A DNA stretch of 64,000 nucleotides, taken from NCBI RefSeq assembly GCF_023544665.1, contig NZ_JAMJFL010000021.1:1-64000 (forward strand), written 5' to 3'. The DNA comes from Streptomyces sp. YS415 (GTDB lineage Bacteria > Actinomycetota > Actinomycetes > Streptomycetales > Streptomycetaceae). Each line of letters opens with the position of its first letter. Within the stretch, counting starts at the first letter, position 1. This document shows positions 29,297-56,696 of this stretch, piece by piece. The notes beneath the pieces were generated by a model that was not told the DNA's origin, did no database searches, and saw only the letters and a list, made by a program, of their open reading frames with translations. The position numbers were made by a program, and so were the translations under genes.

Positions 29297-29784
29297 ATGC
29301 CCTCGGACGCGGTGCTCTACCAGGCGGCGGCGCTCTGCCTGACGTACCCCGACGACGACTTCCGCGCCCGGCTTCCGCTGCTGCGCGAGGCCGCACCCCA
29401 GCTGCGGGAGTTCACCGACCACGCGGCGGTGACCGACGCCCAGGAGCTGGCCGCGCACTATGTGCAGGTCTTCGACCCCACCGGTCGGCACGGCCTGTAC
29501 CTGAGCCGGTGGCGGGACGGGGACACCCGGCGGCCCAGGATGCCACCGGCCCGCTTCGAGGACCTCTACCGCGAGCACGGTTTGGAGTCCAGCGGCGAGG
29601 AGCTGCCCGACTTCCTGCCCGCGGTCCTGGAGTTCGCGGCCCGCACCGGCAACCTCGACCTGCTCGTCGAGCACCGCGACGGCCTGGAGCACCTCCGCTC
29701 CCGGCTCACCGACCGCGGCACGCCGTACGCCTCCGTCCTGGACGCCGTGTGCGCCACGCTCCCACCGGGAACCGCCGGTGACCG

Positions 29785-29788
<4 letters not shown>
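29297..29788 (+). CDS. narJ: Orphan nitrate reductase chaperone NarJ
   Basis: 163 residues of the NarJ/nitrate reductase delta family, the chaperone that inserts molybdenum cofactor into NarG. Family motifs are [48 protein letters not shown] and [13 protein letters not shown]. It is shorter than typical actinobacterial NarJ, ending soon after [10 protein letters not shown]. No narG, narH or narI is adjacent: upstream is an XRE regulator, downstream the convergent dnaK, whose stop overlaps this stop by four bases. The AAGGAGGA site seven bases before ATG 29297 indicates it is still expressed. Confidence 0.85.
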
Positions 29789-37435: not shown

Positions 37436-39511
37436 TCAGGCCGCCCGCTCCTCGGCGGGCCGCTCCAGGGGCACCTGCGGCCCGCCCGCCTCGTCCAGCC
37501 AGCGGCGCAGCACCCGGTGGACGCTCTCGGCGCCGACGAGCTCCGCCCCGTCCTCGGCGGGCGCGGACAGCACGAGGGGCGAGAGCAGGAAGGCCTTGCC
37601 CTGGGCGCCGCCGAGTCCGCCGTGCGAGCCGATCTGCTCCTCGAAGGCGAGGACTTCGCCGTCGGCGGGGTCGTACATGGAGTTGACCATGATGTCGGCG
37701 GTGTGCGGGAAGGAGTGGGTGCGCCGCACGGCGTCCGCGGCGCCGGGCCCGAAGGGGGCGAGCGGGCCGGGGTCGTGGTCGAGGCGGTCCAGCGGGATCT
37801 CCGTGCCGAACGGGCCGAGCACGACCCCGCCGTGCCGTTCGCTGCGCACCAGCAGGAAGCCGATGCCGGGGTGGTTGGCGAGCGTGGTCAGCAGTGCGGG
37901 GTGGCGGGCGTCGATCTCCTCCTTGGTCATCCGGTGGGGGACGTCCGGGAAGGAGATCAGGCCGAGGTTGCCGGAGGCCAGCACGATCGGCTCCGAGCGG
38001 CGGGCCGGGCGGTCCCGCTCGCCGCGCTCCTCCACGGGGATGCGCAGCGCGGCGCGCACAGCGGTGCGCGCCTCGGCCCCGCTGTGGGTGCGGCGGGCCC
38101 TGCGCGGCACGGGCAGCCCGCAGCCGGCCCGCACCAGGTCGCCGAGGGTGAGGCCGTAGCGGGTGCGGAAGGTCTCGCCGGGGCTCTGCCCGTGGTCCGA
38201 CAGCACCACGATCCGGTACGGCCGGGGGGCGTGCTCGGCGACGTTCTCGATGAGTTCCAGCGACCGGTCGAGGTGTTCGAGGACCTTCTCGGCGTCCCGG
38301 CTCGCCGGTCCGGAGTGGTGGGCCACCTCGTCGTAGGCGACGAGGTCGGCGTAGACGGCGGTGCGCCCGGCGAGCATGTCGCCCATCACCGCGGCGACGA
38401 CGACGTCCCGTTCGACGACGGTCGCGAAGGCCCGGACGAAGGGGTAGAGGCCGCCGCGGGAGACCCGGGGGCGGGTCTTGCGCAGCCGGGCCCGGGTGGA
38501 CTGGCCGATCTCCCGGCCGACCTCCGCGACGAACGACAGGGCGGTGCGCACCGCGTTGGCAGGGTCGGAGAAGTAGGCGAAGTAGCCCGCACGGGAGCGG
38601 GTTTCGCGGCTGCGGCGCATCGTCGCGATGGACAGCACCAGGGCCTGCTCCTCGGCGCCGCCGCTGAACAGGTTGCCGCGGCTGGCGCCGTCGACGGTGA
38701 GCAGTCCGCCGTCGCCGCTGTGCCGCACGGCGCGGCGCTGGAGTTCGGCGGCGCTGGTCGGGCGGTTGCAGACCATCACCTCCCCGCTGTCCTTCTCGTA
38801 CCAGCGGAAGGCCGGGACGTCGTGGTTGCTGCCGTGCATGATGCCGAGCTGGCTGGCGCCGGTCTGGCTGGACCAGTCGGTGCGCCAGGGGGTCAGCCGG
38901 TGGGTGGGGCGCTCCCCGCCGGTCCAGCGGGCCAGGGTCGGCATCAGCCCCTTGCGGACGGCGTCCCGCAGCACGTCGTGACCGACCCCGTCGAGCTGCA
39001 GGAAGACGGTGCCCGGAGTCGACGGACACGGCGGCCCGGTGCCGCGCCGGCGGTCGGCCAGCCGGTACAGCCGCCGGCGGTAGGCGTCGTCGTCCCGTAC
39101 GGCGAGGGCGGCGCCGGTGGCGGAGGCGACCGCCGACATCACGGCGGCGACCACCACGGCGGTCTCCCAGGCGGCGCCGCCGCGGTCGGCGGGGTTCAGC
39201 CGCAGGGCGACCAGCAGGAGGGCGCCGTTGAGGAAGAAGACCAGCAGTCCGAGGACGAGCGCGGGCACCAGCAGCAGCAACCGCACCAGGAGCGGCCAGA
39301 CCAGGGCCGACAGCACACCGAAGGCGCCGGCGCCGAACGCGGCGGTGACGGCGATCCGGGTCGAACTGTCGCCGTCGGGGGACTGGAGCTGGAAGTCCGG
39401 GAGGATCCCGGCGAGCACCAGCAGGGTGAGCGTCGAGACCGCCCACACCGTGACGCTGCGCCCGATCTGACTGGCGACCCGCCGCCAACGCCGCCCCAGC
39501 ACGCCCCGCAC
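37436..39511 (-). CDS. Holin-like TM domain fused to phosphodiesterase domain
   Basis: 691 residues. The N-terminal part (about 15-140) has four hydrophobic segments resembling the phage holin family PF04020 (VWAVSTLTLLVLAGILPDF). From about 165 on follows an alkaline-phosphatase-superfamily domain (nucleotide pyrophosphatase/phosphodiesterase-like), with metal-binding candidates FLQLDGVGHD, DWSSQTGASQLG, YDEVAHHSG, VVLSDHGQSPG and EEQIGSHGGLGG. It should be a membrane-anchored phosphodiesterase. The substrate is unknown and no lytic function is implied. It is downstream of a convergent-free gap and upstream of the MoxR gene on the same strand, 78 bases apart. Confidence 0.75.
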   Translation of the reverse strand: MRGVLGRRWRRVASQIGRSVTVWAVSTLTLLVLAGILPDFQLQSPDGDSSTRIAVTAAFGAGAFGVLSALVWPLLVRLLLLVPALVLGLLVFFLNGALLLVALRLNPADRGGAAWETAVVVAAVMSAVASATGAALAVRDDDAYRRRLYRLADRRRGTGPPCPSTPGTVFLQLDGVGHDVLRDAVRKGLMPTLARWTGGERPTHRLTPWRTDWSSQTGASQLGIMHGSNHDVPAFRWYEKDSGEVMVCNRPTSAAELQRRAVRHSGDGGLLTVDGASRGNLFSGGAEEQALVLSIATMRRSRETRSRAGYFAYFSDPANAVRTALSFVAEVGREIGQSTRARLRKTRPRVSRGGLYPFVRAFATVVERDVVVAAVMGDMLAGRTAVYADLVAYDEVAHHSGPASRDAEKVLEHLDRSLELIENVAEHAPRPYRIVVLSDHGQSPGETFRTRYGLTLGDLVRAGCGLPVPRRARRTHSGAEARTAVRAALRIPVEERGERDRPARRSEPIVLASGNLGLISFPDVPHRMTKEEIDARHPALLTTLANHPGIGFLLVRSERHGGVVLGPFGTEIPLDRLDHDPGPLAPFGPGAADAVRRTHSFPHTADIMVNSMYDPADGEVLAFEEQIGSHGGLGGAQGKAFLLSPLVLSAPAEDGAELVGAESVHRVLRRWLDEAGGPQVPLERPAEERAA

Positions 39512-39990: not shown

Positions 39991-40074
39991 GGGGTCCCCC
40001 TCACCTCCGCGTTTCAGGCGCCGACACTACTCCTGCCCGTAGGCTTCGGGGAGTCGCGCGAAGGGAGCAAAGAG

Positions 40075-40848
40075 GTGCCCGTGGAGATCACCTGGTGGGG
40101 TCACGCCACCTGCACGGTCGCCGACTCGGACGTACGCGTCCTGACCGACCCTTTGTTCGCACGCCGGCTCGCGCATCTGCGCCGGCGCCGGGGCGCGCTC
40201 CCGGCGCCCGACGCCTGGCGTGCGGATGTCGCGCTCGTCTCCCATCTGCACGCCGACCACCTGCATGTTCCTTCCCTGGCGCGGCTCGCCGAGGGCACGC
40301 GCCTGGTCGTGCCCCGCGGCGCACCACGGTCGGTGCCGGGGCTGCGCCGGCTCACGCATCTGCGGGTCACCGAGGTGGAGCCCGGGGATGTGACGCAGGT
40401 GGGCGCGGTGCGGGTGCGCGCCGTGCCCGCGCGCCACGACGGCCGCCGGCTGCCGGTCGGACGCCACCACTCCCCCGCTCTCGGTTTCGTCGTCGAGGGC
40501 GAGGCGCGCACCTACTTCGCCGGGGACACCGGCCTGTTCGACGAGATGGCCGCGGAGGTCGGGCCGGTGGACGCGGCGCTGCTGCCGGTGGGCGGCTGGG
40601 GCCCGTCTCTCGGCGAGGGCCATCTGGACGCCGGGCGCGCGGCGGAGGCACTGGCCCGGCTGGCGCCCCGCACTGCCGTGCCGGTGCACTACGGCACGTA
40701 CTGGCCGATCGGGATGGACGCCGTACGCCCCCACGAGTTCCACGCGCCGGGCGACGAGTTCGTGCGCCTCGCCGCCGAGCGCGCGCCGGGCGTCGCCGTG
40801 CACCGGCTCGGGCACGGCGAGAGCATACGGCTGGGGGTGACCGCGTGA
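40075..40848 (+). CDS. Metallo-beta-lactamase fold hydrolase
   Basis: 257 residues. Metal site HLHADH (about residue 61), a downstream Asp in TYFAGDTGLFDEM and a final His in VPVHYGTYWP. This is the UlaG-like metal-dependent hydrolase group (VEITWWGHATCTV, LTDPLF). Unknown substrate, cytosolic. GTG 40075 is preceded by AAGGGAG with about eight bases; GTG 40081 is the alternative. Its stop overlaps the DedA start (GTGA), so the two are co-translated. Confidence 0.85.
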   Translation: MPVEITWWGHATCTVADSDVRVLTDPLFARRLAHLRRRRGALPAPDAWRADVALVSHLHADHLHVPSLARLAEGTRLVVPRGAPRSVPGLRRLTHLRVTEVEPGDVTQVGAVRVRAVPARHDGRRLPVGRHHSPALGFVVEGEARTYFAGDTGLFDEMAAEVGPVDAALLPVGGWGPSLGEGHLDAGRAAEALARLAPRTAVPVHYGTYWPIGMDAVRPHEFHAPGDEFVRLAAERAPGVAVHRLGHGESIRLGVTA

Positions 40849-41462
40849 CCTGGCTCGCCGCCGCGTCGACGGTGTCGGCCGAGTCCGCGCATCAGGCGAT
40901 CGGCTATCCGACGCTGTTCGTCCTGGTGCTGGTCGGCGCGCTGGTGCCGGTCGTGCCGACGGGGGTGCTGGTGAGTACGGCCGCGGTGGTGGCGTTTCAC
41001 CAGACGGCGCCCCTCGCGCTGGCTTTGGTGTTCGTCACGGCCTCCCTCGCCGCGTTCACGGGAGATGCCACGCTGTACTGGCTCGGGCGCCGGGGGATGA
41101 AGTCGAAGAACGGGTCGCGGTGGCTGGAGGCGATACGGTCGCGGGCGCCGGAGGAGCGTCTGGAGCAGGCGCAGACGAAGCTGGCCGAGCACGGGGTGGC
41201 GGTGCTGGTGCTGTCCCGGCTGGTGCCGGCGGGGCGGCTTCCGGTGATGCTCGCCTGTCTGCTCGCGAAGTGGCCGATGCGCAGGTTCGCCCGGGGCAAC
41301 TTCCCGGCGTGCCTGGCATGGGCGCTGACGTATCAGCTGATCGGGATCCTCGGCGGGTCGCTGTTCCCGGAGCCCTGGGAGGGGGTCGTGGCGGCGGTGG
41401 CGCTGACGCTGGCCGTCGGTGCGGCGCCCAGTGTCTGGCGGCGGATCCGGGCCGCCGGGTGA
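40845..41462 (+). CDS. DedA family membrane protein
   Basis: 205 residues with about five hydrophobic segments. DedA/SNARE-associated features include GDATLYWLGRRGM, LVLSRLVPAGRLPVMLACLLA and FPACLAWALTYQLIGILGGSLF. The family includes polyprenyl-phosphate and phosphatidylethanolamine scramblase-like flippases needed for membrane homeostasis. GTG 40845 overlaps the preceding stop by four bases. It converges on the second MBL-fold gene with a 14-base gap. Confidence 0.88.
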   Translation: MTWLAAASTVSAESAHQAIGYPTLFVLVLVGALVPVVPTGVLVSTAAVVAFHQTAPLALALVFVTASLAAFTGDATLYWLGRRGMKSKNGSRWLEAIRSRAPEERLEQAQTKLAEHGVAVLVLSRLVPAGRLPVMLACLLAKWPMRRFARGNFPACLAWALTYQLIGILGGSLFPEPWEGVVAAVALTLAVGAAPSVWRRIRAAG

Positions 41463-41476
41463 GCGCACCCCCCTAA

Positions 41477-42625
41477 TCAGTCCTCCAGCACCCGGGACGC
41501 CCCGACGGGCAGGTCCCACAGGTCCTCCCGGGACAGCCCCGCCGCCTCCCACGCCGCCCGCACCCTGGTGAGCGGCTCCAGGACGGGCTCCGCCGACAGG
41601 ACGAACGTGCCCCAGTGCATGGGGGCCATCCTGCGCGCCCCCAGGTCCCGGACGGCCCGCACCGCTTCCTCCGGGTCGCAGTGGACGTCGCTGAGCCACC
41701 AGCGGGGGTCGTAGGCGCCGATCGGCATCAGGGCGAGGTCGATTCCGGGATGGCGGCGGCCGATGCGGGCGAACCAGTGGCCGTAGCCCGTGTCGCCCGC
41801 GAAGTACACGCGCCGGCCGTCGGGGGCGGTGAGGACCCAGCCGCCCCACAGACTGCGGCAGGTGTCGGTGAGGCTGCGCTTGGACCAGTGGTGGGCCGGG
41901 ACGAAGTCGAAGCGCACGCCGTCCAGTTCGGCCGCCTCCCACCAGTCCAGCTCGGTGACGGCGGTGAAGCGGCGGCGGTGGAACCAGCGGGCGAGGCCGG
42001 CCGGCGCGAACACCGGGGTGTCGCGCGGGAGCCGGCGCAGGGTGGGGGCGTCCAGGTGGTCGTAGTGATTGTGGCTGATGACGACCGCGTCCACGCGCGG
42101 GAGGGCCGCCCAGTCGATGCCGACGGGGGTGATCCGGGCGGGGGTGCCGATGATGCGGCGGGACCAGACCGGGTCGGTGAGGACGGTGAGCCCGCCGATC
42201 ATGACCACCCAACTGGCGTGTCCCGCCCAGGAGACGGCGACCGTGCGGGCGTCGACGCTCGGCAGCGGGCCGGGTTCGAAGGGCAGCAGCGGGACGTCGG
42301 CGAGGCCCTCGCGGCCGGGGCGGACGGCGCCCTCGCGGGCGAACCGGGCCATGGCCTTCAGACCGGGCAGGGGGGCGGTCAGCCGGTCGTGGAAGGTGCG
42401 CGGCCACACCCGGGGCTCGGCGAGCGGGCGGGGCTCGGCGAGCGGCGGAAGCGGTGCCGGGGAGGAGGCGGGGTGGCCGGCTGCCTCTTCCCGCACGGCT
42501 GCCGTTTCCCGCACGGCAGTCTTCTCCCGTTCGGTTGCCTTCTCCCGCTCGGCTCCCCTTCCCCGCTCGGCTTCTCTTTCCCGCTCGGCTTCTCTTTCCC
42601 GCGTGGTCTCGGACTGCTGCGTCAT
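41477..42625 (-). CDS. UlaG/NAPE-PLD-like MBL-fold protein with charged N-terminus
   Basis: 382 residues. Residues 5-45 are a highly charged low-complexity stretch of repeated Glu-Arg pairs, partly a tandem DNA repeat around 42500-42610. The MBL domain starts at about 120 with VSWAGHASWVVMIGGLTVLTDPV; the metal site is SHNHYDHLD, plus RVYFAGDTGYG and MHWGTF. The layout resembles NAPE-PLD/UlaG enzymes. The substrate is unknown. ATG 42625 overlaps the stop of the aminotransferase-like gene (ATGA), so it is translated together with it. Confidence 0.83.
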   Translation of the reverse strand: MTQQSETTREREAEREREAERGRGAEREKATEREKTAVRETAAVREEAAGHPASSPAPLPPLAEPRPLAEPRVWPRTFHDRLTAPLPGLKAMARFAREGAVRPGREGLADVPLLPFEPGPLPSVDARTVAVSWAGHASWVVMIGGLTVLTDPVWSRRIIGTPARITPVGIDWAALPRVDAVVISHNHYDHLDAPTLRRLPRDTPVFAPAGLARWFHRRRFTAVTELDWWEAAELDGVRFDFVPAHHWSKRSLTDTCRSLWGGWVLTAPDGRRVYFAGDTGYGHWFARIGRRHPGIDLALMPIGAYDPRWWLSDVHCDPEEAVRAVRDLGARRMAPMHWGTFVLSAEPVLEPLTRVRAAWEAAGLSREDLWDLPVGASRVLED

Positions 42626-43869
42626 CGAGAGGGCTCCCCTCGCCGGGCGTCGTCGCGGAGATCGTCGAAGACCGATGTCACATGGGACAACGCACGTCGC
42701 ACATGGGGCAGTTCCCAGGGCGCGGGCGAACCGAGGCAGGCCGCGCGTTCCTCGTCCGTGCCGCCCAGCAGGTCCCCGGTGGACAGCCGTACGCGCGGCG
42801 CCCCGAGGTCGTCGCCGAAACGGTGACCGCCCGGCGCGGGCAGGCCGAGCCGGGCGGTCAGGAAGTCCTCCAGGTCCTGGGCGTCCCCGACGCCCTGGGC
42901 GCTCAGCGCGGGACGCAGGGGGCCGAGGTCGACGTAGAGATGGCGGCCGGCCTGCGGGGGAAGGGCGAGGGCTCCCGCCTCGACGACGGCCGTGTGCAGG
43001 GCGGCGGCCAGGTGCGTGTGCAGGGCCACGGAGGCCGCCAGGCGGGCGAGGACCGGCTCGGGTTCGGTGAGCGCGTACGCGGCCGCGGCGGCGACCGGGC
43101 CGGCGACGCGGGCGCCGAGCGCGGTGAGCACGTCGAGCACGCGCGCGTGCAGATCCGCGCCGACCTCGCCCGCGGGGAACCGGGCGATCGCGGCCGGCCA
43201 GCCGGGCGGCAGCAGGGCTCCGGCCAGGTCGGTGACGACGGTGACCCGCTCCGGCAGCATCTCGGCGGGGCTGAGCAGCACGGAGTCGTAGGGGGCGTGC
43301 CGGGTGTCGCGCCAGGTCTCGTCGCTGACCAGGTGCAGACCCTCGGCCGCGGCGGCCTCGACGGTCTCGTGCAGCACCTCGGGCGGCGCCACGGTGGCGG
43401 TGGGGTCGTCGGCGACGGAGAGCACCAGCAGCCGGGGGTCGCCGCCCTCGGCGCGGACCCGGCGCACGGTCTCCAGGAGGGCGAACGGGTCGGGCACCCC
43501 GCCGCACTCGGCGGGGGTGGCGACATGGAAGACGGGGCGTCCCAGCAGGCGGGCGTACGGTCCCCACCAGGTGGCGCAGGGCCGGGGCACCAGGACGTCA
43601 CCGCCGAGGGCGGCGGTCAGCGCGAGCAGCAGGGCGGGCGCGCCGGGGGCGGCGACCACCCGGTCGGGCACGGCGGACAGGCCGCGCCGGTCCCAGTGGC
43701 CGCAGGCGGCGTCGAGCAGGGCGCCGCCGCCTCCGACGGGTTCGCTCTCGGGGCGGGCGGCGGCAGCGGCGAGCCGGGCGGACAGCTCGGGCAGCACGGG
43801 CAGCCCGTCCCCGGGCAGCGGGGGCCCGTACCGGACGGGGCCGTGGCTCTCGGGAATCCTCCGCGCCAC
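42622..43869 (-). CDS. Aminotransferase-fold protein without any lysine
   Basis: 415 residues from GTG 43869, which has AGGAGGGA eight bases upstream. The organisation is that of PLP-dependent class I/II aminotransferases (PVRYGPPLPGDGLPVLPELSARL, LVPRPCATWW, LVLSVADDPTATVAP, LVSDETWRD). At the position of the PLP lysine (SFSK-like) it reads VVTDLAGALLPPGWP. Reading the whole chain I find no lysine at all, so no Schiff base with PLP can form. It may bind a nucleotide, amino acid or PLP noncovalently, or have lost catalysis. Its stop overlaps the MBL-fold gene. Confidence 0.8.
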   Translation of the reverse strand: MARRIPESHGPVRYGPPLPGDGLPVLPELSARLAAAAARPESEPVGGGGALLDAACGHWDRRGLSAVPDRVVAAPGAPALLLALTAALGGDVLVPRPCATWWGPYARLLGRPVFHVATPAECGGVPDPFALLETVRRVRAEGGDPRLLVLSVADDPTATVAPPEVLHETVEAAAAEGLHLVSDETWRDTRHAPYDSVLLSPAEMLPERVTVVTDLAGALLPPGWPAAIARFPAGEVGADLHARVLDVLTALGARVAGPVAAAAAYALTEPEPVLARLAASVALHTHLAAALHTAVVEAGALALPPQAGRHLYVDLGPLRPALSAQGVGDAQDLEDFLTARLGLPAPGGHRFGDDLGAPRVRLSTGDLLGGTDEERAACLGSPAPWELPHVRRALSHVTSVFDDLRDDARRGEPSR

Positions 43870-43903: not shown

Positions 43904-44590
43904 TCAGCTGTCGGCACCTCTTCCCGTGCGGCGCAGCCGGTACACGGCACCGCCCAGTGCTCCCGCGATCAGCACCCCGCCGGTCACCAGGGCGGGGACG
44001 GAGTCGGTGAACGTGCCCCCCTCGCCGGCCCGCACACCGCGCTGGACCACGGCGGGCGGACAGGTCTCGTGGTGTTCCCCGGTCGCGCACGGGCGGGGGC
44101 TGACGACCGCCGGCGGGCAGGACGGGGTATGCGGCTCGGTGGCGCACGGCCGCGGGGCGGTGGGACCGCCCTTGGCGACGGTGAAGGTCGCGCTCCACTG
44201 CTTGCCCTGGCCGCCGGGGGCGGCGGGGCAGGTTCCCTCGACGGTCCAGGCGGTGTCGGGCCCCAGGGGTTCGACGCCGCCCTCGAGCTCCGCTGCGGAG
44301 GCGATCAGGGCGGTGCCGCGGTAGGAGGGCCCGGCGGCGGCCCCGTCGTCACCGGCGACCTTGTGCAGGGCGACGGTCTCCTCCTCGAAGGCCAGCGAGG
44401 TGGCGTCGAGGGTGGCGGGCGCTGGCCCGCCGGTGGGGTCGCAGGTGACCGAGACGGTGAGGGTCCCGCCGGGATGCGTGCTGCCCGGGCTGACCTCCGC
44501 GGCCGGTTCCGCGAAGGCCGAGGAGGCGGCGAAGCCCAGGAGGACACCCCCCAGGGCAAGGGCGGACAGGACACGGACGGTGCGGCGCAT
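43904..44590 (-). CDS. Membrane-anchored surface protein
   Basis: 228 residues. A signal peptide (about 1-27, ending AFA) precedes an exported domain (about 30-145) with the immunoglobulin-like pattern VSPGSTHPGGTLTVSVTCDPTGG. Then comes a Pro/Cys repeat (PRPCATEPHTPSCPPAVVSPRPCATGEHHETCPPAVV), and a C-terminal hydrophobic helix (about 200-218) with a short RLRRTGR tail. It resembles widespread Streptomyces cell-wall-facing proteins with no known function. The promoter region includes the 277-base gap to the sigma factor, which carries a 45-bp tandem repeat. Confidence 0.75.
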   Translation of the reverse strand: MRRTVRVLSALALGGVLLGFAASSAFAEPAAEVSPGSTHPGGTLTVSVTCDPTGGPAPATLDATSLAFEEETVALHKVAGDDGAAAGPSYRGTALIASAAELEGGVEPLGPDTAWTVEGTCPAAPGGQGKQWSATFTVAKGGPTAPRPCATEPHTPSCPPAVVSPRPCATGEHHETCPPAVVQRGVRAGEGGTFTDSVPALVTGGVLIAGALGGAVYRLRRTGRGADS

Positions 44591-44867: not shown

Positions 44868-45659
44868 CTAGGCCGGGTCCCGGAGGATCTGCTCCCGCAT
44901 CCGTCCGCAGCACCGGCTGATCAGCCGGGACACGTGCATCTGCGAGATCCCCAGTTCCTCGGCGATCCGGCTCTGCGTCATGTCCCCGAAGAACCGCATG
45001 TACAGGATCGCCCGCTCCCGCTCCGGCAGTGCGGCCAGCCGCGGCTTCACGGCCTCCCGGTCCACCACCGTGTCCAGGGCGGGATCCGCGGACCCGAGCG
45101 CGTCGCTCAGCGAGTACCCGTCCTCACTGCCGGGCAGCTCCGCGTCCAGCGACAGCGCCGTGAAGCTCTCCAGTGCCTCGAGACCGGCCCGGACGTCGTC
45201 CTCGGTCATGTCCGCGTGTTCCGCGATCTCCGCCACCGAGGGGTTGCGCCCGGAGACGGTCTGCAGGTCCTGCACGGCGAAGCGCACCCGATTGCGCAGG
45301 TCCTGCACCCGGCGCGGCACGTGCAGCGTCCACATGTGGTCCCGGAAGTGCCGCTTGATCTCGCCGGTGATGGTGGGCACGGCGTAGCTCTCGAACGCGT
45401 TGCCGCGCTCGGGGTCGTACCGGTCGACCGCCTTGACCAGACCGAGGGCCGCGACCTGGCGGAGGTCCTCGTAGCTCTCGCCACGGCTGCGGAAGCGGCC
45501 CGCGAGCCGGTCCGCCATCGGCAGCCAGGCCTCGACGATCCGCCCGCGGAGCGCGTCGCGCTCCGGACCCGCCGGCAAGCTGCTCAGCTTGCGGAACGCC
45601 TCCGCGGTGTCGGGGGCGTCGTCGTGCGGGTGGTGCTTCGCGCTCACTCGTGTGGGCAT
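44868..45659 (-). CDS. SigB/SigF-type alternative sigma factor
   Basis: 263 residues with the SigB/F/G architecture: region 2 (GRFRSRGESYEDLRQVAALGLVKAVDRYDPERGNAFESYAVPTITGEIKRHFRDH), region 3 (ISGRNPSVAEIAEHADM) and region 4 (RERAILYMRFFGDMTQSRIAEELGISQMHVSRLISR). It directs RNA polymerase to general-stress or developmental promoters. ATG 45659 is chosen from family length and an upstream GAGGGAG. No anti-sigma gene is adjacent. It is divergent from the TPP enzyme gene, and several nearby genes show SigB-type promoters. Confidence 0.93.
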   Translation of the reverse strand: MPTRVSAKHHPHDDAPDTAEAFRKLSSLPAGPERDALRGRIVEAWLPMADRLAGRFRSRGESYEDLRQVAALGLVKAVDRYDPERGNAFESYAVPTITGEIKRHFRDHMWTLHVPRRVQDLRNRVRFAVQDLQTVSGRNPSVAEIAEHADMTEDDVRAGLEALESFTALSLDAELPGSEDGYSLSDALGSADPALDTVVDREAVKPRLAALPERERAILYMRFFGDMTQSRIAEELGISQMHVSRLISRCCGRMREQILRDPA

Positions 45660-55800: not shown

Positions 55801-55838
55801 CATTCAAAACGCGGGTCTCATCATTCGACATGCGGGCG
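55801..55838 (+). promoter_or_regulatory. 21-bp direct repeats before methyltransferase
   Basis: CATTCAAAACGCGGGTC (55801-55817) and CATTCGACATGCGGGCG (55822-55838) are related segments offset by 21 bases, two helical turns. A -10-like TACCGT follows at about 55839-55844. This suggests tandem binding of a regulator. Confidence 0.4.
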
Positions 55839-55874
55839 TACCGTGACGCCATCATCACGAAACGAGGGGACCGC

Positions 55875-56696
55875 ATGTCGAAGCCGCGTGAGACCGCCGT
55901 GTACACCCATGGGCACCATGAGTCGGTGCTGCGCTCGCACACCTGGCGCACCGCCGCCAACTCCGCCGGTTATCTGCTGGGTTCGCTCCGGCCGGACATG
56001 CGGATCCTGGACATCGGCTGCGGGCCCGGCACCATCACCGCCGATCTCGCGGCACTGGTGCCGCAGGGCCATGTCACCGGGGTGGACCGGGCACCGGGCG
56101 TGCTGGAGCAGGCGCGGGCCACCGCCGCCGAACGGGGCCTGGGCAACGTCGGCTTCGCGGTCGCCGACGTGCACGCTCTGGACTATCCCGACGACACCTT
56201 CTGCGTGGTCCACGCCCACCAGGTGCTCCAGCACGTCGGCGACCCGGTGCGGGCGCTGCGGGAGATGGCCCGGGTGACCAGGCCTGGCGGGTACATCGCG
56301 GTCCGCGACTCGGACTACGCGGCGATGACCTGGTACCCGGCGTCCCCGGGGATGGACGACTGGCTGGACCTGTACCGACGGGTGGCCCGCGCCAACGGCG
56401 GGGAGCCGGACGCCGGGCGGCGGCTGAAGGCCTGGGCGCTCGCGGCGGGGCTGGAGGACATCACGGCCACCTCGGCCACCTGGACCTTCGCGTCCCCCGA
56501 GGAGCGGGCCTGGTGGAGCGGGCTGTGGGCCGACCGCACGCTGGCCTCGGCCTACGCGGACCGGGCCCTGGAGGGCGGCCATGCCACCGAGGAGCGGCTG
56601 CGGGCGGTGTCCGCGGCCTGGCGGGCGTGGGGCGAGCAGGCGGACGGCTGGTTCAGCGTGCTGCACGGCGAGATCCTGTGCCGCAAGGACGGCTGA
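55875..56696 (+). CDS. Class I SAM-dependent methyltransferase
   Basis: 273 residues from ATG 55875, with GAGGGG just upstream. Motif I ILDIGCGPGTITADLAAL (about residue 44), VTGVDRAPGVLEQA, VADVHALDYPDDTFCVVHAHQVLQHV and EMARVTRPGGYIAVRD form the UbiE/COQ5-like core. It has a long C-terminal region with many Trp (TSATWTFASPEERAWWSGLW). It methylates an unknown small molecule. It ends 57 bases before the gvpK stop on the opposite strand, with no obvious functional link to gas vesicles. Confidence 0.83.
   Translation: MSKPRETAVYTHGHHESVLRSHTWRTAANSAGYLLGSLRPDMRILDIGCGPGTITADLAALVPQGHVTGVDRAPGVLEQARATAAERGLGNVGFAVADVHALDYPDDTFCVVHAHQVLQHVGDPVRALREMARVTRPGGYIAVRDSDYAAMTWYPASPGMDDWLDLYRRVARANGGEPDAGRRLKAWALAAGLEDITATSATWTFASPEERAWWSGLWADRTLASAYADRALEGGHATEERLRAVSAAWRAWGEQADGWFSVLHGEILCRKDG

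Follow-up and report, generated by a model that had tools for sequence, protein, structure and literature searches.

Can a protein that has kept the fold of an aminotransferase, and has lost the lysine to which these enzymes bind their pyridoxal 5'-phosphate (PLP), still be an enzyme, and if not, what has it become? The question is raised by a gene, here called AT*, on contig NZ_JAMJFL010000021.1 of Streptomyces sp. YS415 (assembly GCF_023544665.1), of which the first 64,000 nucleotides were analysed (the window). A preliminary description of this DNA, made from the sequence alone, had read the gene as encoding an aminotransferase-fold protein of 415 residues without a single lysine, and the translation, the domain match and the fold comparison all agree with that reading.

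42622-43869, minus strand: AT*, a lysine-less protein of 415 amino acids (aa) with a class I aminotransferase fold, GTG start and TGA stop (translation, PF00155, AlphaFold2 model and fold matches)

The open frame runs from the GTG at 43869 to the TGA at 42622; AGGAGGGA is found 5' of the GTG, and the sequence of AT* contains VVTDLAGALLPPGWP. PF00155 matches AT* with an E-value of 2.4e-9, and the aspartate aminotransferase (AspAT) of Thermus is a sequence match (best E 6.5e-13). The AlphaFold2 model, built from a 43-row alignment, is confident (mean pLDDT 89.6, pTM 0.88). Experimental structures of class I aminotransferases align with it along almost its full length (Foldseek best E 4.0e-20; VIA Z 41.3, 345 residues, rmsd 1.9). 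Model, fold search and domain match thus place a fold-type-I, class I fold across the entire protein. All 43 members of family alignment A1 also match PF00155, so annotation pipelines are likely to call AT* an aminotransferase.

The absence of the PLP lysine is specific, and it is accompanied by the loss of other cofactor contacts. Both were counted in 175 aligned rows that represent 174 distinct sequences, the AT* of the window being included twice. These sequences come from 222 loci, with duplicates, incomplete sequences and those shorter than 330 aa left out, together with the lysine-bearing loci, L204-L246, L274-L302 except L277, and eight broken or partial loci (L055, L059, L061, L064, L068, L079, L081 and L111). 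Columns were matched to AspAT through an alignment with the Thermus enzyme and lysine-bearing homologues, and the AspAT residues concerned are Lys258, Arg266, Asn194, Tyr225, Trp140, Tyr70*, Asp222 and Arg386. The positions that matter most are the following.

43219-43221, minus strand: Gly217, at the position of the PLP lysine (AspAT Lys258), placed by the alignments with Thermus AspAT and lysine-bearing homologues
43195-43197, minus strand: Pro225, at the position of the phosphate-binding arginine (AspAT Arg266); proline in 164 of 175 rows, arginine in 1
43405-43410, minus strand: Asp154-Asp155, the second at the position of AspAT Asn194; Asp154 in 175 and Asp155 in 171 of 175 rows
43312-43323, minus strand: D-E-T-W motif, in which Asp183 (AspAT Asp222) is kept (175 of 175 rows) and Trp186 replaces Tyr225 (168 of 175)
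42793-42795, minus strand: Arg359, the arginine for the substrate alpha-carboxylate (AspAT Arg386), kept; arginine in 170 of 175 rows, histidine in 5

Position 217 is glycine in 158 rows, alanine in 7, glutamate in 6, histidine, glutamine and a gap in one row each, with one row not itemised, and none of the 175 rows (174 distinct sequences) has a lysine anywhere from position 213 to 222. The phosphate cup and the ring contacts are missing as well: for Ser/Thr, Arg266, Asn194, Tyr225, Trp140 and Tyr70*, the AT* of the window has Ala77, Pro225, Asp155, Trp186, Ala99 and Ser42. Across the family, the phosphate serine position holds Ala77 in 154 rows and the Trp140 position Ala99 in 137, and the Tyr70* position is variable (Ala 43, Ser 40, Pro 26, others). 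As the lysine has gone together with most of the other contacts to PLP, AT* should not hold PLP as an internal aldimine. The earlier claim that classical PLP catalysis is impossible therefore stands for internal-aldimine chemistry, and it applies to a family rather than to one gene. It had been coupled to a proposal to align the family at the PLP site, with close homologues that retain the lysine as the outcome that would have spoken for an error or a pseudogene; there are none among the 174 sequences, and lysine-bearing relatives are met only at 34-44% identity, elsewhere in the tree.

AT* shares with class I/II aminotransferases (PF00155; Thermus AspAT, 1bjw) the full-length fold and the equivalents of Asp222 and Arg386, namely Asp183 and Arg359, but differs from them in that the PLP lysine is gone and six other cofactor contacts are replaced. 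Arg359 is also arginine in 38 of 38 rows of a further alignment, A3, whose ten lysine-bearing rows all have Ser77, Asn155, Tyr186 and Lys217. In A3, seven columns are fixed differently in AT* and in the lysine-bearing rows (in AT*: Ala77, Ser151, Ala153, Asp155, Trp186, Leu248 and His310), and other positions are nearly fixed among the 175 rows (Tyr312 in 175, Arg187 and Arg361 in 174 each, Asp188 and His191 in 173 each). The site thus reads from its sequence as a re-specialised pocket more than as the outcome of random decay.

The complete absence of lysine from the chain is a different matter. It is true of the AT* of the window, as first described, and is partly an effect of base composition. 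AT* has the highest G+C content (78.3%) among the 35 window genes of at least 250 aa in our own gene calls, and in these genes the lysine fraction drops as G+C rises (r = -0.78). No lysine is found in 95 of the 175 family rows, one in 69, two in 9 and three in 2; for 80 named loci the corresponding numbers are 35, 40, 4 and 1. None of 15 other genes with lengths of 380-450 aa, called in 69 related loci, encodes a lysine-free protein, and of the 46 genes in the window that reach 150 aa two do so, AT* and a 163-aa NarJ-like nitrate reductase chaperone (29297-29788). Since many orthologues carry one lysine elsewhere in the chain and the content follows G+C, what matters is the loss of the PLP lysine and not the total count. 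An independent role for lysine depletion, for example in escaping lysine-directed modification, was set aside, as the depletion tracks G+C.

The PLP site was lost once. In a tree of 60 sequences, whose outgroup is long-branched and whose support is SH-aLRT only, the 28 rows without the lysine group in a single clade (SH-aLRT 100) on a long stem (0.84), and this clade is nested inside the lysine-bearing rows, with a value of 97 for the branch that unites it with eight of them. A single clade in this position points to one loss among lysine-bearing aminotransferases. The lysine-bearing sisters, from Streptomyces, Embleya and relatives, can be aligned to AT* end to end (34-44% identity in local alignments), and the lysine motif is present in all 36 of their loci that were read (L072-L075, L078, L080, L082, L083, L104, L110, L274-L276 and L278-L300). 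AT* branches within this actinomycete family; the sisters differ in having kept the lysine, in their biosynthetic gene neighbours and, in the seven sister loci surveyed for it, in having no such hydrolase gene beside them as adjoins AT* (below).

Within Streptomyces AT* is widespread. Some match at E 0.001 was found in 240 of 246 genomes of the genus sample, and a match at the level of AT* (E 1e-76 or better, by a hand count of the match table) in 211, the sisters reaching 2.8e-72 at best. The remaining 35 genomes have contig breaks at or beside the gene (for example G242, G139, G344, G119 and G150), divergent or broken copies, the sister only (G037, G120, G186 and G198), or a true absence. 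Among the best 80 of 541 relatives in named genomes, a set biased to close relatives, 79 come from records that bear the name Streptomyces, the exception being Actinobacteria bacterium OV320. Beyond the genus, all matches in the order-level sample were weak (E 8.5e-6 or weaker); in the class-level sample 208 genomes had no match, and the 20 that were read of the 40 with a match were all lysine-bearing. Within this sampling, AT* is seen only in Streptomyces. A lysine-less copy, 55% identical and unannotated in the sequence collection, lies on a linear 2.8 Mb record labelled plasmid p1 of Streptomyces sp. BHT-5-2 (L277).

AT* is under purifying selection, like its neighbour genes among close relatives. 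Its median pairwise dN/dS is 0.27 in 40 loci (of the 80 named loci, the first 40 with a length above 12 kb), the values being rough owing to high-G+C codon use. By the same method and in the same loci, the adjoining metallo-beta-lactamase (MBL)-fold hydrolase gene gave 0.18, a DedA-type membrane protein gene 0.24, a phosphodiesterase gene 0.25, a sigma factor gene 0.16 and an upstream gene for a secreted-looking protein 0.68. The family is of catalytic ancestry, conserved and selected, and has lost its catalytic residues; on this footing AT* is very probably a pseudoenzyme.

What such a protein does has to be read against an established loss of the site, a single origin, an intact predicted fold, purifying selection and the persistence of AT* where the hydrolase has been lost. 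As the PLP site is nearly gone and the gene is nevertheless selected, AT* is probably a binding or regulatory protein and not the enzyme that its family name implies. The full explanation that we lean towards, at somewhat better than even chances, is that of a pseudoenzyme which does without PLP, whose re-specialised pocket is compatible with carboxylates and which has a ligand-binding or regulatory role, a role that the preliminary description had also considered. According to this explanation, AT* would have arisen once, by duplication of or descent from a lysine-bearing actinomycete aminotransferase, and been maintained in Streptomyces. The old substrate pocket, with its kept Arg359 and Asp183 and its newly fixed Asp155, Trp186 and Ala77, may, with no PLP in place, bind a small molecule that is a carboxylate or resembles an amino acid; the kept arginine and aspartate and the new pocket residues fit such a role. 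AT*, in its bound or its empty state, might then act on another protein as a sensor or allosteric effector.

Several observations weigh against this explanation. The lysine loop is variable, with insertions, in a divergent AT* clade, which means that selection on some of the old site is loose, and Arg359 gives way to histidine in the five rows mentioned. Constraint is weaker among 35 sequences that diverge further (median dN/dS 0.42, range 0.16-0.78). AT* is absent from the complete genome G330, and also from G156, G121, G037 and G265, and is broken in G005, G403 and G224; absences and broken copies mean that it is dispensable.

One rival holds that AT* is still an enzyme, which either retains PLP or pyridoxamine 5'-phosphate (PMP) without a lysine or works without cofactor. 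Catalysis would then fall to conserved residues such as Asp154/Asp155, His191 or Tyr312. A precedent for this rival is set by ColD and E1, fold-type-I enzymes in which PMP is used and a histidine takes the place of the lysine, and Asp154, Asp155, Asp183, Arg187, Asp188, His191, Tyr312, Arg359 and Arg361 are each found in at least 170 of the 175 rows. However, at the old lysine position the family has histidine in a single row and glycine in 158, and almost every row has lost the positions that make up the phosphate cup (Ser77, Arg266 and Tyr70*), which argues against PLP and PMP alike. We therefore consider a surviving enzyme unlikely.

A second rival turns on the gene downstream. Like LCB1 (see below), AT* would have no catalytic role here and would serve as a subunit or regulator devoted to one enzyme, the hydrolase to which it is translationally coupled.

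41477-42625, minus strand: MBL-fold hydrolase, NAPE-PLD-like, 382 aa, in ATGA overlap with AT* (PF12706, E 9.2e-47; human NAPE-PLD 4qn9, E 1.2e-59)

The TGA of AT* overlaps the ATG of the hydrolase gene as ATGA, as had been described for the window. The overlap is found in 78 of 80 close loci, which speaks for a partnership, and in a neighbourhood survey the hydrolase gene adjoins AT* in 30 of 31 lysine-less loci and the lysine-bearing sister in 0 of 7; in divergent lineages, however, the overlap often gives way to a gap or to GTGA. The hydrolase has the metal-binding motifs of a NAPE-PLD-like enzyme. It aligns to human NAPE-PLD across the HxHxDH, GDTG and HWGTF segments, differing as a bacterial protein with a variable N-terminal extension, and among 115 matches (E 1e-60, loci above 5 kb) HxHxDH is present in 115, GDTG in 113, PA-x-H-x-[SGT] in 107 and the narrow pattern [MI]HWGT in 58.

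The two genes are not always kept together. We surveyed 80 near-complete genomes, made up of 79 of about 100 with at most 10 contigs, taken in list order, and of G330, added because it lacks AT*. An orthologue of the hydrolase is present in 72, which again favours the partnership, and eight (G005, G058, G066, G100, G129, G166, G174 and G179) retain only a paralogue of about 40% identity (best match E 1e-38 or weaker). G005 has a frameshifted AT*, which also speaks for the rival, but in the other seven (L303-L308 and L316) the AT* frame is open. Pairwise dN/dS of AT* in L303-L308 is 0.15-0.37, against a DedA control median of 0.21, and in a clade of four hydrolase-free genomes it is 0.15-0.22. 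On the tree, hydrolase presence needs at least three separate changes with labels verified in whole genomes, and five if two loci with local absence only are counted. Conversely, the hydrolase gene occurs without an adjoining AT* in five genomes, with no AT*-family match in G330 (one contig) and G156, a weak one in G121 (2.8e-6) and the lysine-bearing sister only in G265 and G037; in L244 a broken AT* adjoins an intact hydrolase gene.

Since AT* persists with an open frame where the hydrolase orthologue is missing, and the hydrolase is kept where AT* is missing, AT* is not an obligate subunit of it, and we downgraded that possibility. The paralogue could replace a lost partner, so that the losses weaken the rival and do no more, and we rate a dedicated hydrolase subunit as quite improbable. 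The partnership implied by the preliminary description is thus common among close relatives and weakened by the seven genomes with an open AT* and no hydrolase orthologue. In the explanation that we favour, the NAPE-PLD-like hydrolase would be a frequent functional neighbour that could hardly be the sole partner of AT*.

A third rival pairs AT* with a lysine-bearing aminotransferase in a heterodimer whose inactive half would be AT*; in its favour, class I aminotransferases are dimers with shared active sites, and there is a precedent in LCB1 (SPTLC1). This fold-type-I subunit of serine palmitoyltransferase is without the PLP lysine and further catalytic residues and has been retained in a regulatory or structural capacity (PMC3794620). 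The Tyr70* position, which contributes to the partner's site, is nevertheless lost in AT*. The sister is also patchily distributed, being present for instance in G037 and G265, which lack AT*. The genome of the window itself has no close lysine-bearing sister, the next match of a sister profile after AT* having an E-value of 5.9e-40, and for this reason a heterodimer with the sister was downgraded. A more distant aminotransferase could serve as partner. All in all, a heterodimer strikes us as rather improbable. The last rival, a decaying pseudogene or sequencing artefact, for which the broken copies (G005, G403 and G224) and the absences might be cited, is very improbable and was rejected, as 174 distinct sequences share the same open frame and the same replaced residues, the median dN/dS is 0.27 and the predicted fold is confident and full-length.

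Losses like that of AT* have precedents in LCB1 and in the yeast protein Alt2, inactive relatives of PLP enzymes being few in the literature found. LCB1 resembles AT* as a retained fold-type-I relative without PLP lysine and catalytic residues, but it needs the lysine-bearing LCB2, whereas the genome of the window offers no such close partner, and AT* is bacterial and of another subfamily. Alt2 is an aminotransferase paralogue reported as catalytically inactive and kept (PMC3458083, PMC5960717); it is one yeast paralogue, whereas AT* is a genus-wide family whose PLP site is gone. No description of the Streptomyces family was found in a literature search that left many papers outside its reach and covered others in part. 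AT* would be a bacterial family of large size in which the site was lost once, at a point that can be dated, with lysine-bearing relatives for comparison and natural losses of either the hydrolase or AT*, and it offers a clean system for asking what role an aminotransferase fold plays once its cofactor is gone.

The gene context of the sisters offers a hint about the ancestral substrate. Those nearest to AT* in the tree (L105, L106, L281 and L282) adjoin KamA-family radical SAM proteins, with E-values of 3e-34 or better that lie below the curated cut-off, and in L278 a neighbour is annotated as lysine 2,3-aminomutase. AMP-binding enzymes also stand beside these KamA-linked sisters (L278, L281, L282, L105 and L106). 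Such neighbours suggest that polyketides or peptides are started here with a beta-amino-acid unit, and a beta-amino acid or amino acid is a plausible substrate of the ancestor of AT*; one may then guess that AT* binds such a molecule. A more distant sister branch (L107, L108, L110 and L284) lies in clusters that resemble a LysW-type amino-group carrier set, with LysX- and ArgC-like enzymes and also a glutamate-dehydrogenase-like protein and an AMP-ligase, L107 being the one tested with models.

With this in mind, one may speculate, with rather low expectation, that AT* is a genus-level, PLP-free metabolite sensor derived from an aminotransferase of amino-acid-derived secondary metabolism. That it would report an amino acid, beta-amino acid or keto acid to adjoining membrane-lipid and stress functions, namely the NAPE-PLD-like hydrolase, the DedA-type protein and a SigB-family sigma factor, is a similarly doubtful suggestion. 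The neighbours in question are as follows.

40072-41462, plus strand: convergent neighbours, a second MBL-fold protein (UlaG/UPF0173-like) and a VTT/DedA-type membrane protein (domain matches; kept beside the pair in most fetched loci)
43904-44590, minus strand: upstream gene, 228 aa, fast evolving (dN/dS 0.68), secreted-looking by eye, ending 34 bases before AT*
44868-45647, minus strand: SigB/SigF/SigG-family sigma factor, a frequent upstream neighbour (TIGR02980, E 7.1e-87)

The 228-aa gene, which has no Pfam or NCBIfam match, is possibly in one operon with AT*. A SigB-type promoter (consensus GTTT-N13-17-GGGTA) has no match in the window. The SigB-family sigma factor near the gas vesicle genes of S. 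coelicolor is SigK (SCO6520), of which the sigma factor encoded here may be an orthologue. A defence system was also set aside, AT* and five neighbours having no PADLOC match at E 0.001. A gene like those of SAM-dependent methyltransferases, related to the one at 55830-56696 of the window, adjoins the hydrolase gene in the five genomes that have the hydrolase without AT* (L237-L241). Finally, a 691-aa protein with a holin-4-like membrane domain and a type I phosphodiesterase domain (37436-39511) is a conserved neighbour of the locus.

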